This document shows, in pieces, positions 7,501 to 43,500 of a stretch of DNA of 64,000 nucleotides. Position 1 is the first letter of the stretch, and every line of letters starts with the position of its first letter. The position numbers were made by a program, and so were the translations under genes. The stretch lies in contig CM049404.1 in assembly GCA_026929865.2 (NCBI GenBank), positions 4,565,001-4,629,000 of the forward strand, given 5' to 3'. Source of the DNA: Hyperoplus lanceolatus. Its lineage: Eukaryota; Chordata; Actinopteri; Uranoscopiformes; Ammodytidae. The notes beneath the pieces are model-generated. The model saw only the letters and a program-made list of their open reading frames with translations. It did no database searches and was not told where the DNA came from.

Positions 7501-10500
7501 ATTTTGCTGTGAGACAAAACTGCACATTTCAGGGTGGCCTTTTATTGTGGACAGTCTAAGGCACACCTGTGCACTAATCATGATGTCAGATCAGCATCTT
7601 GATGTGGCACACCTGTGAGGTGGGATGGATTATCTCAGCAAAGCAGAAGTGCTCACTATCACACATTTAGACAGATTTGTGAACAATGTATTGTGTATCT
7701 GGAATGAATTTTAGATCTTTAAGTTCATCTCATGAAAAATGGGAGCAAAAACAAAAGTGTTGCGTTTATATTTTTGTTGAGTGTATAAATCAATGGTACT
7801 GAAGCCAGCCCACAGAGGAATTGCATCGACCCATGACAATCTCTGTGCCCAAACCTAAGACAAGTAAAAACTAAAGGTACATTTAAAGTAGGTAGCTCCA
7901 CACTTTTGAAGTTTGAAAGAAATTAGAGACACGTGCGGCATTTTAAATTTATGCTCCGGCTAAAGGTTTCAGTTGTCTCCATAGTAACCAGATACCATCC
8001 TCCGACCAGCTTGTTTTAGCTGCACATCTTCTGACTGGTGGTGGCTTGTTCTGATTTGCATTTAAACAAATATACAGTATGTTTTAAAAAGTAAGGCTAA
8101 TAACACTGAAACTCTGGAAACAGAAATACAGTTGTGTTCAAAATTATAGCAGTGTGTTTAAACAATTGAGTAAAGATCAAAATCCTAATAATAGCTTTTA
8201 TTTCCATACACGCAAATGCATTGGGGACATTGCACATTCTATTCCAAATCCAAATATGAAGAAACATTTGTCAAATGTTTCTTCATCTTTACAGAAAGTG
8301 AAGAAAAAGGAATATTAGACCGTTCAAAAAAATAGCAGTGTCTGCATTTTTCTTTACAACTCAAACATTTACTTTATCAACTGAAAAATGCATGAAGATG
8401 TAGCTTTGAATCACTGAACTAATATTTAGTTGTAGTTGGACTACATTCCACAATTCCTCTGCATTTCTTGGTTTTGCTTCAAAAACAGCATTTTTGATGT
8501 CGCTACATAGATTTTCTATTGGATTGAGGTCCAGGGATTGGGCTAGCCACTCCATAACGTTAATCTTGTTGGAACCAAGATCTTGTTCGCTTACTGGTGT
8601 GTTTGGGGTCGTTGACTTGTTAGAACACCCATTTCAAGGCCATTTCCTCTTCAGCATAAGGCAACATGACCTCTTCAAGTATTCTAATGTATCCAAACTG
8701 ATCCATGATCCCTGGTATGTGATAAATAGACCCGACACCATAGTATGAGAAACATCCCCATAACATGATGTCTGTGCCACCATGCTTCACCGTCTTCAAA
8801 GTGTACTGTGGCTTGAATAGGGGCCGCAGAAGAGGTCATGTTGCCTTATGGTGAAGAGGAAATGCCCTTGAAATGGATGTTCCAACAAGTCAACAACCCC
8901 AAACACACCAGTAAGCGAACAAGATCTTGGTTCCCTGGACCTCAATCCAATAGAAAACCTATGTCGTGACATCAAAAATGCTGTTTTTGAGGCAAAACCA
9001 AGAAATGCAGAGGAAATGTGGAATGTAGTCCAGTCATCCTGGGCTGAAACACCTGTTCACAGGTGCCATAAGTTGGTCGACTCCATGCAACACAGATGTG
9101 AAGCAGTTCTCAGAAATAGAGGTTATACAACTAAATATTAGTTCAGTGATTCAAAGCTACATCTTCATGCATTTTTCAGTTGATAAAGTAAATGTTTGAG
9201 TTGTAAAGAAAAATGCAGACACTGCTATTTTTTTGAACAGTCTAATATTCCTTTTTCTTCACTTTCTGTAAAGATGAAGAAACATTTGACAAATGTTTCT
9301 TCATATTTGGATTTGGAATAGAATGTGCAATGTCCCCAATGCATTTGCGTGTTTGGAAATAAAAGCTATGATAAGGATTTTGATCTTGCCTCACTTTTTC
9401 TTTTTTCATCTTTCCAAACTTAATCCAAACTGGGAGATTACTAAAATGAAATGACGTACTTTTCCATACTGCGTAGGAACCATGTCAAGAACTTGTGTTC
9501 AACTCTAACTTGTGTTATCTTGTGTGTGTGTGTGTTTTTTCTTTCAGAGAGGAGCTTAAACTCTGTCGTCAGAACGTTGAGAGTGTTTTGGAGCATAGGG
9601 TTAACTTGGAGAAAGAGATGGAGCAACAGAAAGCAGATGACAATTGGTGAGTTTAAATAAAGTTAACAAAACAGTATCTTATCTGTACTTAAGATTTTTA
9701 CAGACATGCCTTGGTTTCATTTAACCCTGCAGTGTGGCGGTGTTTCGTTTGCGAGCCCAACATAAGCATCTGTGTCAAATGCTGAAGGGTGAGGAGGAGC
9801 TGGAGGGTCAACTCAACATGGAGCTGAAGCAACGAGAGTGAGTCAGAGAGGAAAGTGCTTTGACAGTGAGGTCTTGTTCTGACAGGCATCAGTAGTGCAT
9901 GAAAACAACGCACCGCGATACATTTAATTCAATGGGGCCCTTCTGTATTGATGCTGTGACATCATCAAGCGATCAATGTATTATCCAATAAGAAGCTTAA
10001 GTGCTCATTCCTAGTAGATAACTCTGAAATCTACAGTTTCTGCAGTTCTCATTCTCATTGTCATGATAGAGGAGAGAATGTTTTAAAATCTTTTGTGCAG
10101 CTAAAGTACATACTTCTAAAAAAAAATGCTATAATCAGACGTTGTCACTTGAAGGCTTTTACTGCCAATATAACCAAACAATTATGGCATATTCATTTGT
10201 TATGTTGGGGCTTAATCATCAAAGCCATTCCTGTGTGTTGTGGCACAGTTTAGCTTATTTTTAAAAAATCTATAAGGAAAGGTAATTCATTGTGCTTAAA
10301 CAAACTGGCAGTTTTTTTTATGAAGGATAATGTAATCTCTATATGGTCTGAATGTTGTTTTTCGCATGGTTTTAATAATCACCTATAGACCTATTAATTC
10401 AGTCGATTGATCTTCTTAAACATAATGTAAAGAGAAACTCATAATGCAACATGACCACATATACTGTAGGTCTTAAACTCTGTACAGCAAGTTACCGTAC

Positions 10501-40500: not shown

Positions 40501-43500
40501 AAGTGTGTCTTGCCTATAGTCAAGCATGGTGGTTGGAGTGTCATGGTCTGGGGCTAAATCAGTGCTGCCAGCACTGGGGATCTGCAGTTCACTGAATGCC
40601 AACATGTACTGTGCCATACTGAAGCAGAGCATGATCCCCTCCCTTCGTAATCCGGGCCACAGGGCAGTATTGCAACATGATAAAGACCCCAAACACACCT
40701 CCAAACGACCACTGCCTTGCTAAAAAAGCTGAGGGTAAAGGTGATGGACTGGCCAAGCATGTCTCCAGACCTAAACCCTATTGAGCATCTTTGGGGCATC
40801 CTCAAACGGAAGGTGGAGGAGCGCAAGGTCTCTAATATCCACTAGCTCCTTGATGTCGTCATGAATGAATGGAAGAGGATTCAAGTGGCAACCTGTGAAG
40901 CTCTGGAGAACTCCATGCCGAAGAGGGTTAAGGCAGTGCTGGAAAAATATAGTGGCCACCCAATACACTTTGGGCCCAATTTGGACATTTTCACTAAGGG
41001 GTGTACTCACTTTTGTTGCCAGCACTGGCTGTGTGTCAAGTTAATTTGAGGGAACAGTAACTCAATAAAGTTATAATCCAGAGGTATTTGTACAGTTCCT
41101 CTGCCCCTGCTATTGAACAAAACTAGTTTTCTATCCCTTGCTGATGTCCAATCGGTTTACACAGAGTGAGCCACTTCAACAAAGACCTTGTCCAACTACC
41201 TTGTTTGAACAGAAAACACACTAAACTAAGGGGCATGAGACTTGAATACCAAGTATCACTTTTATAATCATCTAGTGTATAGTGGCTAGAGACAAATAGA
41301 TAAATAAATAAATACAGTGCCAATAAACTACATAAGGCCTTATTTGAACTCCATTAGTTTTCAAGGTGAAGTGAATATTGCAATTAAAAACTCTGGTGTC
41401 TGTAATCAATGTCAAAGGCAATACACAATGTCAAAAACATGAAACCCTTACAAAAGTCCTTCAGTTTCCTCATCACTTCCTTATAAAAAGTATCAAAATG
41501 TCTTTTTATCCTTTTTTTCTTGATCAAGAGTTTGCTATTTGGCACTGATATTTAAAGAAATTGTTTCCTGTGTCTGTTCTTGTGTTTCTTCTCAATCCGG
41601 CCCCAGAGTAATCCTTGGTGGCTCTCTGCCATCGTGCAAAATGCCAATCCTACCCTCCCTATTCCTAAAACAAATTTCAAAATAACTTATAAGGAAGTGA
41701 AAGTAAGCATTTAATCTATTACATCATGCACTGTGTCAATCTGTAAACTGTACTGACCAAGAAGTTAAAACCTGTGTTTAACACTGTCAGAATTTGCCAA
41801 GTCTGAAAAGGAACCGCAAAGGCATTCAACATCAATGTCCAATAAGTAAAGTAAAGCACATTATGCAGTATGTCATTATAGGAAACATCATATTAAACAG
41901 GCTGTCAAGTCCTGCAAAATAAGATATTAAGCCCCCACACGGTCAGCACTTTTCAGAGTTTTACTGACAAATGATGCATTCAACTCACAATATGAAACAA
42001 CAAAATCTCAAAACTTAAGCCCAAGCTGTACGAAACCAATCAACTTCAATATTCATGGTTAGGGTTATCATAATGAACTACTTCTTCAACATATAATATT
42101 CAAGCGGCTGTTAAACCCCTTCGTACAAGAGAGGGCTGTATGTCATGCCTCCATTGTATTTGTTGTCATGCTCAGAAACATCCTTGGAATAGAGTTAGGC
42201 AGGTGACATGGACCGCTGATGTAACCCTAGCTTATCTGCTGATTGCAACACTAAAACTCCCTCACACTCTCCGTCTCTGCCAAAACGGGCATTTTCACAG
42301 AGAAACAGCTCATAGAAATCCCTTAAAATGGACAGATCCAGCTTACTTTTCAGCTGGCCCAATGTAAAATAAAGGTCAGAGCCAAGCCCTGTATTGTGAT
42401 GTTTCCAATAATAAAATGGAGATGTCTTAGCTGATAAAATGTTTATTAATATAAGGGTGACGTAAGGGACCAAACCTTAAGCTCATATCCCCACAATCCT
42501 CTTTGGTCCCTCACAAAAGCACAGAACTAAAGTAAATCCGTTATGATTATGGATGTGATACATTATGATTCACACACTAGGTTAAAAACACACCGTGGGC
42601 AGTTACATTTTACAGGCGTGCAATCCAGCACCTAGCCAGTCACTGTGTCACATCGTATGGGGGAGGGAATGTGTGTGTGTGTGTGGGGGTGGGGGATTTG
42701 TGACAACTGCCATCTGGTGCGCTGGCACACCAGCACATGTGACAACGTGAAGATGACAGCATCAGTGTGAACGGCAGCTTTAAAAGTAAAAAAAAAATAA
42801 CGTGTCAAGGCTTTCACCAGCAAACCATTCTGTCACCCAGCCTCCAACACAGTCATTTAAACACAAAATAGCCTGGCAGGCATTGGGTGGAAACAATTAG
42901 AGAGCCACTGCTTTCATCATACAAATTGTCACTTTTTTCCTTTTGAGTAGGAATCCCACACATCCTCCATAGTTTGTGGAAGTTTCTTTTAGAGAACAGC
43001 ACAAAGCATCATGGAGTGTGTCTCTCTTGTCTGTGTGCCAGTGATTTAAATATTACTCCTACTCATTAAAAGCATTTGTAAAGGGCTTTAAAATGTGCAG
43101 CGTGTGACTTCTGCTGGTGAGCCAATGATTGGAATATTTGTGCGGGGCAGTTGGCAGCTTTTTTTGTTTTTGGGAACAGTGTGTTTTGTTTTATCAAACA
43201 CTCAGCCGAAACTTTCAAATCCCCCTCCACCGGCATCTGCTGGGTGACTTGCTCATTCATGCCCATATCAAGGACACTGTTTACTGTATTTCTAAAATGG
43301 CTTACTGTTACTGTCTTAATCAATCATTAAAGATAGAATTATAGATTCTTATTTCTTATTTGGTTATTGTGAAATATATTATATTGCATTGTATAAATCA
43401 TACAGTGCTGCAAACCCCTGCCATAAAAACTGGCTATCACATGAGCAAAGGCAGCAATACAGTGAGCTTTTTGGATCATTCTCCACAATTCAGAAGTCAT

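Follow-up and report, generated by a model that had tools for sequence, protein, structure and literature searches.

In a stretch of 64,000 nucleotides from Hyperoplus lanceolatus (C10:4565001-4629000, hereafter the window; the genome comprises 807 Mb on 527 contigs), three foldback elements, termed A, B and C, were identified as single transposed copies of three multicopy non-autonomous foldback families, whose sequences point to a relation with Tc1-type transposases. It is these families that constitute the finding, and not the coincidence of three such elements in one gene. Very probably, each family goes back to one ancestral Tc1 element which lost its 5' part, whose 3' half became doubled in inverted orientation and which subsequently spread as foldback. 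The start of non-autonomous transposon families is unsettled, and the three families described here show one unusual start, whereby their copy numbers allow a single founding and the spread of the doubled form by itself to be seen, most clearly in family C.

Three foldback families and their inversion junctions

A preliminary description of the window had proposed that A, B and C each consist of a transposase 3' half together with its end, a spacer of 152-479 bp and the same 3' half inverted, and self-comparison bore this out for all three elements (Table 1). BLAST identified arm pairs with E-values of 3e-39 or lower, namely 8160-8434/9126-9399 (97%), 8437-8537/8932-9032 (95%) and 8571-8676/8829-8934 (95%) for A, the outer pair 33998-34388/35914-36295 (90%) for B and 39741-40162/40642-41060 (92%) for C. 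For B, self-comparison without E-value further revealed two inner arm pieces (35475-35558/35739-35822, 93%; 35346-35427/35839-35920, 91%) and the outer tips (33939-34012/36650-36723, 95%). The arms enclose spacers of 152 bp (A), 180 bp (B) and 479 bp (C). While the positions of the foldbacks were thus given correctly in the earlier account, their extents need amendment, as two insertions nested in B had not been told apart from it and the right ends of A and C are incomplete. Besides the 91 bp deleted from its left arm, A has lost 41 bp from its right arm, and B is the only foldback of the window in which both outer ends and the adjoining TA are intact. Long inverted arms form most of each element (one arm amounts to ~560-580 of ~1,640 bp in C, ~610-660 of ~1,440-1,480 bp in B and 793 of 1,627 bp in the A copy L069), so that A, B and C fit foldback elements. 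The three share no mutual BLAST matches of at least 100 nt and differ in their end sequences; their assignment to separate Tc1 families hence holds at the nucleotide level. Pfam searches with the window pieces gave no match for A and B and a match below the cut-off for C (HTH_Tnp_Tc3_2, PF01498, E 9e-5). Among other copies, the B copy L071 matched DDE_3 (E 6e-9) and the C copy L050 matched HTH_Tnp_Tc3_2 (E 7e-15), both above the cut-off, the A copy L008 matched DDE_3 below the curated cut-off (E 1e-4) and the B copy L073 gave no match.

A genome-wide search for the same inversion breakpoints, as had been recommended with the preliminary description, found exact junction matches at 1,197 places for C, 509 for B and 53 for A, with none for reversed control patterns; these counts are lower bounds, as 8 of the 30 C copies that were fetched have an altered 25-mer. 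All 40 scored C hits, all 40 scored B hits and many A hits showed inverted matches at one and the same place. Among the fetched copies, all 30 of C (arm 560 bp, spacer 479-489 bp) and all 5 of B agreed in both breakpoints within one base, and in all of these the 3' half was found on both sides. The statement that the usual 5' end is absent consequently stands for B and C; in A, the type of the outer end is ambiguous. TA adjoined the readable ends in 45 of 47 cases for C (exceptions L042 and L049), 13 of 15 for A (exceptions L002 and L004) and 3 of 3 for B. Being non-autonomous and present in many homogeneous copies with shared breakpoints, the central breakpoints of A being variable, the families resemble miniature inverted-repeat transposable elements (MITEs). 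MITEs are usually shorter than ~600-800 bp, and with about 1.4-1.65 kb per copy the foldback families exceed this length. On the basis of 1,759 exact junctions (lower bounds), ~0.14 foldback copies are expected per 64 kb and, assuming a Poisson distribution, three or more in a single window would be expected about five times across the genome, so that their meeting in one window is no great surprise.

Two objections had been raised in advance, namely that each element comprises two separate insertions or that the assembly is at fault, and both were settled in favour of the foldback structure. Long-read libraries are known to contain artefactual inverted repeats, and hairpin reads could in principle have given rise to an assembly or sequencing artefact. 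The probability of this is negligible, as the arms in the window are 3-10% apart and one junction per family recurs at many places, with differing flanks where these were read. It is also unlikely that the sequence between two Tc1 insertions, nested or in head-to-head orientation, was lost by deletion. Since Tc1 elements appear to be dense here, opposed neighbours may well occur; however, neither a TA junction nor outer-end sequence was found between the arms in the window, and in every one of the 30 C and 5 B copies the junction runs from transposase interior to transposase interior without terminal repeat or TA site. A shared junction would moreover require one event per family regardless of how the two halves met.

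Founding and movement of the families

If each copy had folded back independently, the nearest relative of an arm would be expected to be its own partner. Among the 52 arms of 26 C copies, the nearest relative was the same side of another copy for 48 and the own partner for none; using the outer 120 columns alone or the inner part alone, the own partner was nearest in 3 of 51 and 1 of 52 arms, respectively. A tree of 56 C arms (4 of 60, being shorter than 400 nt, were left out) showed 4 side-label changes as compared to ~19 in shuffles, with the window copy and L040 forming sister branches for the left as well as for the right arm, at moderate support. No gradient from outer to inner sites was found between the arms of C, as 182 of 2,746 outer and 911 of 11,593 inner sites differ. 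In the subgroups L047/48/58, L063/64 and L065/67/68, copies differ from each other by 0.2-0.6% and arms by 4.9-7.7%, with L063 and L064 being 0.18% apart over the whole element, their own arms 7.5-7.7% apart. These two copies reside in differing 40-nt flanks, both between TA dinucleotides, and flanks differ in the seven that were read of the eight near-identical C copies. Family C has thus been active recently. As its arms group by side and near-identical copies keep an arm difference of 5-8%, one founding inversion followed by movement as a unit is concluded for C. With shared junctions at many places, TA flanks and near-identical C copies elsewhere, the earlier suggestion that two 3' ends could still be mobile is supported.

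For B, distances among four copies (L023 was left out) identified the same side as nearest for 6 of 8 arms; the left arm of the window copy is nearest to the left arm of L071 (5.4%) and its right arm to the right arm of L071 (5.0%), its own arms being 8.6% apart. Since the junction is shared within each family, one founding inversion each is also concluded for B and A.

Family A is special in that two of its copies, L069 and L070, form almost complete palindromes with 793-bp arms around a 41-nt loop and one common centre. From this, each of the copies L001 (the window copy) to L006 departs by a different deletion of 105-223 bp in or beside the loop, whereby the deletions of L001 and L002 have a common left breakpoint and L003 has a second gap of 72 bp nearby; L008, L074, L076 and L078 show other one-sided deletions. 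As L001-L008 are the best hits to a query that was itself centre-deleted, the share of centre-deleted copies is to be read as a pattern and not as a rate. Long palindromes with short spacers are described as unstable (PMC7999016), and the centre deletions of A fit this instability. Family A looks like a set of natural stages in which long palindromes lose their centres in the germ line of an animal. Two types of outer-end sequence recur within the family when inspected by eye. Single A hits were foldbacks in four of five cases; the fifth, L077 (C5:5167190-5167590), holds the A loop next to a same-strand sequence that by eye resembles the C-terminal part of a different Tc1 transposase, and looks like a chimeric or nested element.

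The search for non-inverted parents started from sense-boundary matches, which amount to 1,220 versus 1,197 inversion matches for C and 485 versus 509 for B. Out of 15 opened sense-boundary places without adjoining exact inversion (8 C and 7 B, chosen from the first 100 listed per family), 14 are foldbacks with an altered junction (8 of 8 for C, 6 of 7 for B). The C spacer, used as query in a protein search, matched 150 rows with 96-98% identity. Counted by eye, 112 of them contain an open frame of exactly 239 amino acids; the longest frame has 273, and none of full transposase length was found among these 150 rows. The corresponding search for A yielded 151 matches, including one of 325 amino acids with an internal stop and one row of 1,815 amino acids. 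The 239-amino-acid frame is common to young C copies (e.g., L050:1801-2517, plus strand, and L063:1614-2330, minus strand); in these two, its beginning lies in the inverted left arm, from where it extends to the second helix-turn-helix (HTH) and, by eye, to the first catalytic motif. It is probably a by-product of youth, and that an HTH-bearing fragment made from it could interfere with the transposase is speculation.

Several observations weigh against one founding per family followed by movement as a unit. The C tree needs four side changes instead of one, and all four arms of L051 and L053 cluster together, which suggests that either this sublineage underwent arm-to-arm homogenisation or this part of the tree lacks resolution. 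In B, both arms of L073, i.e., two of the eight, are nearest to each other. In A, the arms within a copy differ at 49 of 737 sites in the outer 120 columns and at 86 of 3,507 inner sites (7 copies, L006-L008 left out; Fisher p 9e-8), and the own partner is nearest in 9 of 14 arms by inner sequence and in 1 of 14 by outer sequence. Judged from these sequences, either the inner arms of A became homogenised or one outer end may be a surviving 5' repeat, and in the latter case the concept of two 3' ends would be weakened for A. With the A arms being undecided, the single founder of A rests on the centre common to L069 and L070 and on the 53 junctions. L077 (one of five A hits) and L094 (one of seven for B) could not be read as foldbacks. 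Finally, no intact non-inverted parent of A, B or C turned up among the best-scored candidates and the opened places.

The nearest-partner pattern of the inner A arms and of L073, together with the central breakpoints that vary among A copies, would also suit an origin of each foldback copy in place, by its own aborted gap repair. This is nevertheless highly improbable: one exact junction per family recurs at all the places counted above, the own partner was never nearest in C, and the centre common to L069 and L070 makes the differing centres of A look like later deletions. For B and C, the shared junctions already refute a local origin. The idea that foldbacks are a recurrent product, for example of aborted gap repair, therefore survives with respect to three founding events and fails with respect to the window copies being fresh products.

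Proposed origin and comparison with known systems

In the proposed course of events, one ancestral Tc1 copy per family would have lost its 5' part, while its 3' half, terminal repeat included, became duplicated in inverted orientation. The founding step would most likely have been the repair of an excision gap, in which the 3' end was copied, synthesis switched to the opposite strand and the 3' end was copied again. As abortive gap repair with template switching would explain the copied half, the lost other part and any loop size, it is regarded as plausible. Instead, a broken or excised end may have folded back and primed synthesis, or the template may have been switched at a replication fork, which is possible though less readily assumed: the centre of A with its short 41-nt loop between 793-bp arms looks as if derived from a strand turning onto itself, but chromosomal flank should then have been duplicated too, and the copies extend no further than the terminal repeat, in most cases adjoining TA. 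Such a flank duplication would in turn be concealed if the palindrome had transposed afterwards. The doubled form has two outward-facing terminal repeats, so that a transposase made elsewhere could cut it out in trans and insert it at TA. By exact junction count, it reached no fewer than 1,197 places in C, 509 in B and 53 in A, and part of the spread of C is very recent. Short-loop palindromes such as those of A would then decay via central deletions.

The spread may have been favoured by the presence of two copies of one preferred end. In vitro, two right ends of Mos1 were reported to be 26 times as active as the natural pair and two left ends of Mboumar-9 twice as active, and a similar end-pair result is cited for Sleeping Beauty (PMC4505599). 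By analogy, end preference could explain both why a half-doubled form spread and why the 3' half was retained in all three families, three being too few to show a bias. Predicted single-strand folding energies amount to -0.85 (L069, A), -0.73 (L073, B) and -0.67 kcal/mol per nt (L063, C), to -0.66 (A), -0.64 (C) and -0.48 (B with its nested insertions) for the window copies and to -0.50 and -0.26 for an ordinary Tc1 element and a control stretch; apart from window B with its nested insertions, all examined foldbacks are thus predicted to fold more strongly than ordinary Tc1. On the basis of this foldback layout, a role as hairpin RNA is possible. It is a rather doubtful extension that end doubling is a repeatable and selected fate, in which pairs of preferred ends out-compete their parents and intronic palindromic RNA helps to silence the parent; if true, the doubled form survives in this genome where the intact form did not turn up.

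Related layouts have been described outside the Tc1 elements. Mu killer, a MuDR derivative of maize, has both ends from the same MuDR end and an inverted duplication of mudrA (PMC3440606), and thus resembles the present families in having two copies of one end and two partial transposase copies in inverted orientation. It is described there as a plant locus of the Mutator superfamily that silences its parent, whereas here three Tc1 families with 53-1,197 exact-junction copies are concerned. In Galileo of Drosophila (P superfamily), terminal repeats took in transposase sequence (PMC4168063), and long terminal repeats with the transposase 3' part as well as copies with target duplications are common to both systems; superfamily and target duplication differ, and transposase-bearing repeats are, according to that account, confined to few Galileo copies, whereas here they are present in the copies examined. 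Independent foldback origins in different lineages were suggested in a report that places most foldbacks in Mutator (PMC4079207). Tetris, as described there, shares long inverted arms, a short middle, non-autonomy and an autonomous partner that was not found, but its arms are made of tandem repeats, while those of A, B and C consist of transposase sequence. Tc1/mariner MITEs are likewise non-autonomous with TA as target (PMC4877112). For the mariner MITEs of aphids, internal deletions were put down to abortive gap repair (PMC5490172); for Bari MITEs, they were described as not readily attributable to it (PMC4877112). Unlike these MITEs, which keep both original ends around an internal deletion, the present families have one half doubled and measure about 1.4-1.65 kb, and unlike standard Tc1/mariner elements, B and C do not have a single transposase gene bounded by a 5' end and a different 3' end.

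Among open-licence articles in PubMed Central, no paper on foldback Tc1 families in fish was recognised by title or the start of the abstract; Dfam or Repbase may catalogue such families. As far as these searches reach, it is new that three Tc1 families within a single genome share this half-doubling and have each been amplified. This connects two facts that are mostly treated separately, the inverted-duplication layout of Mu killer and Galileo and the mariner-type preference for two identical preferred ends, and it suggests that broken transposons can repeatedly stay mobile through end doubling.

Host gene and further features of the window

Pfam matches to the CFAP74 immunoglobulin domain were found on the plus strand at 30766-30996, 38226-38579 and 56565-56891, and these three stretches support the view that A, B and C reside in one gene. 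No Rfam family was found in the window at gathering scores.

Table 1. Foldback elements A, B and C, the insertions nested in B and two ordinary Tc1-like elements (window positions).
Element	Feature	Positions	Strand	Basis or remark
A	Left arm: outer end, antisense transposase 3' part	8129..8676	-	91-bp deletion near 8434-8437; TA 8127-8128
A	Spacer: left-arm inner part, unpaired through 173-bp deletion across palindrome centre	8677..8828	-	Comparison with near-complete palindrome L069
A	Right arm: sense transposase C-terminal part, 3' end	8829..9399	+	Outermost ~32-34 bp missing
B	Left arm, outer part	33944..34388	-	TA 33942-33943
B	Nested ~970-bp repeat in left arm	34389..35354	.	TTAA-flanked; ends CCCATTGATG...CATCAATGGG; outside foldback proper
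B	Left arm, inner part	35355..35558	-	Ends at inversion junction 35558/35559
B	Spacer: upstream transposase, KHGG region	35559..35738	+	KHGG region by eye
B	Right arm: sense transposase C-terminal part	35739..36295	+	DDE_3 in other arm of copy L071
B	Nested ~355-bp insertion in right arm	36296..36650	.	Short inverted ends TAGCCTGG...CCAGGCTA
B	Right outer end	36651..36718	+	TA 36719-36720
C	Left arm: outer end, antisense transposase 3' part	39604..40162	-	TA 39602-39603 (by eye)
C	Spacer: upstream transposase with part of second HTH (PF01498)	40163..40641	+	Junction 40162/40163
C	Right arm: sense transposase C-terminal part	40642..41060	+	Outer ~138 bp missing
Tc1-like	Ordinary element (comparison)	6162..7797	-	Self-comparison, reading frames
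Tc1-like	Ordinary element, same family as the preceding one	27712..29240	-	DDE_3 and HTH matches

The two ordinary Tc1-like elements had been described as lacking the foldback form, and in BLAST self-comparison their inverted repeats are confined to the ~290-bp ends. In the family of the element at 27712-29240, inverted matches were found only inside the ~285-bp ends among the listed matches of 40 scored genome copies, which comprise all but a few of 155. The earlier statement is thus confirmed for the window and for the listed matches of these copies, and the foldback form is therefore not general to all Tc1 families of this genome. A truncation shared by the ordinary family was considered and rejected, as two such places were fetched and both had complete ends.

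The ~970-bp repeat nested in B, which we take to be piggyBac-like from its TTAA target and short ends, has 39 other scored copies in the genome with 95-97% identity and hence looks recent. A partial copy of the ~355-bp nested repeat with 88% identity is located at 54060-54260 of the window. Frames resembling LINE (long interspersed nuclear element) endonuclease and reverse transcriptase were seen by eye at 12659-14534. Two short imperfect palindromes are found at 12181-12319 (~140 bp, 85% self-complementary) and at 60722-60840 (119 bp, 79%).

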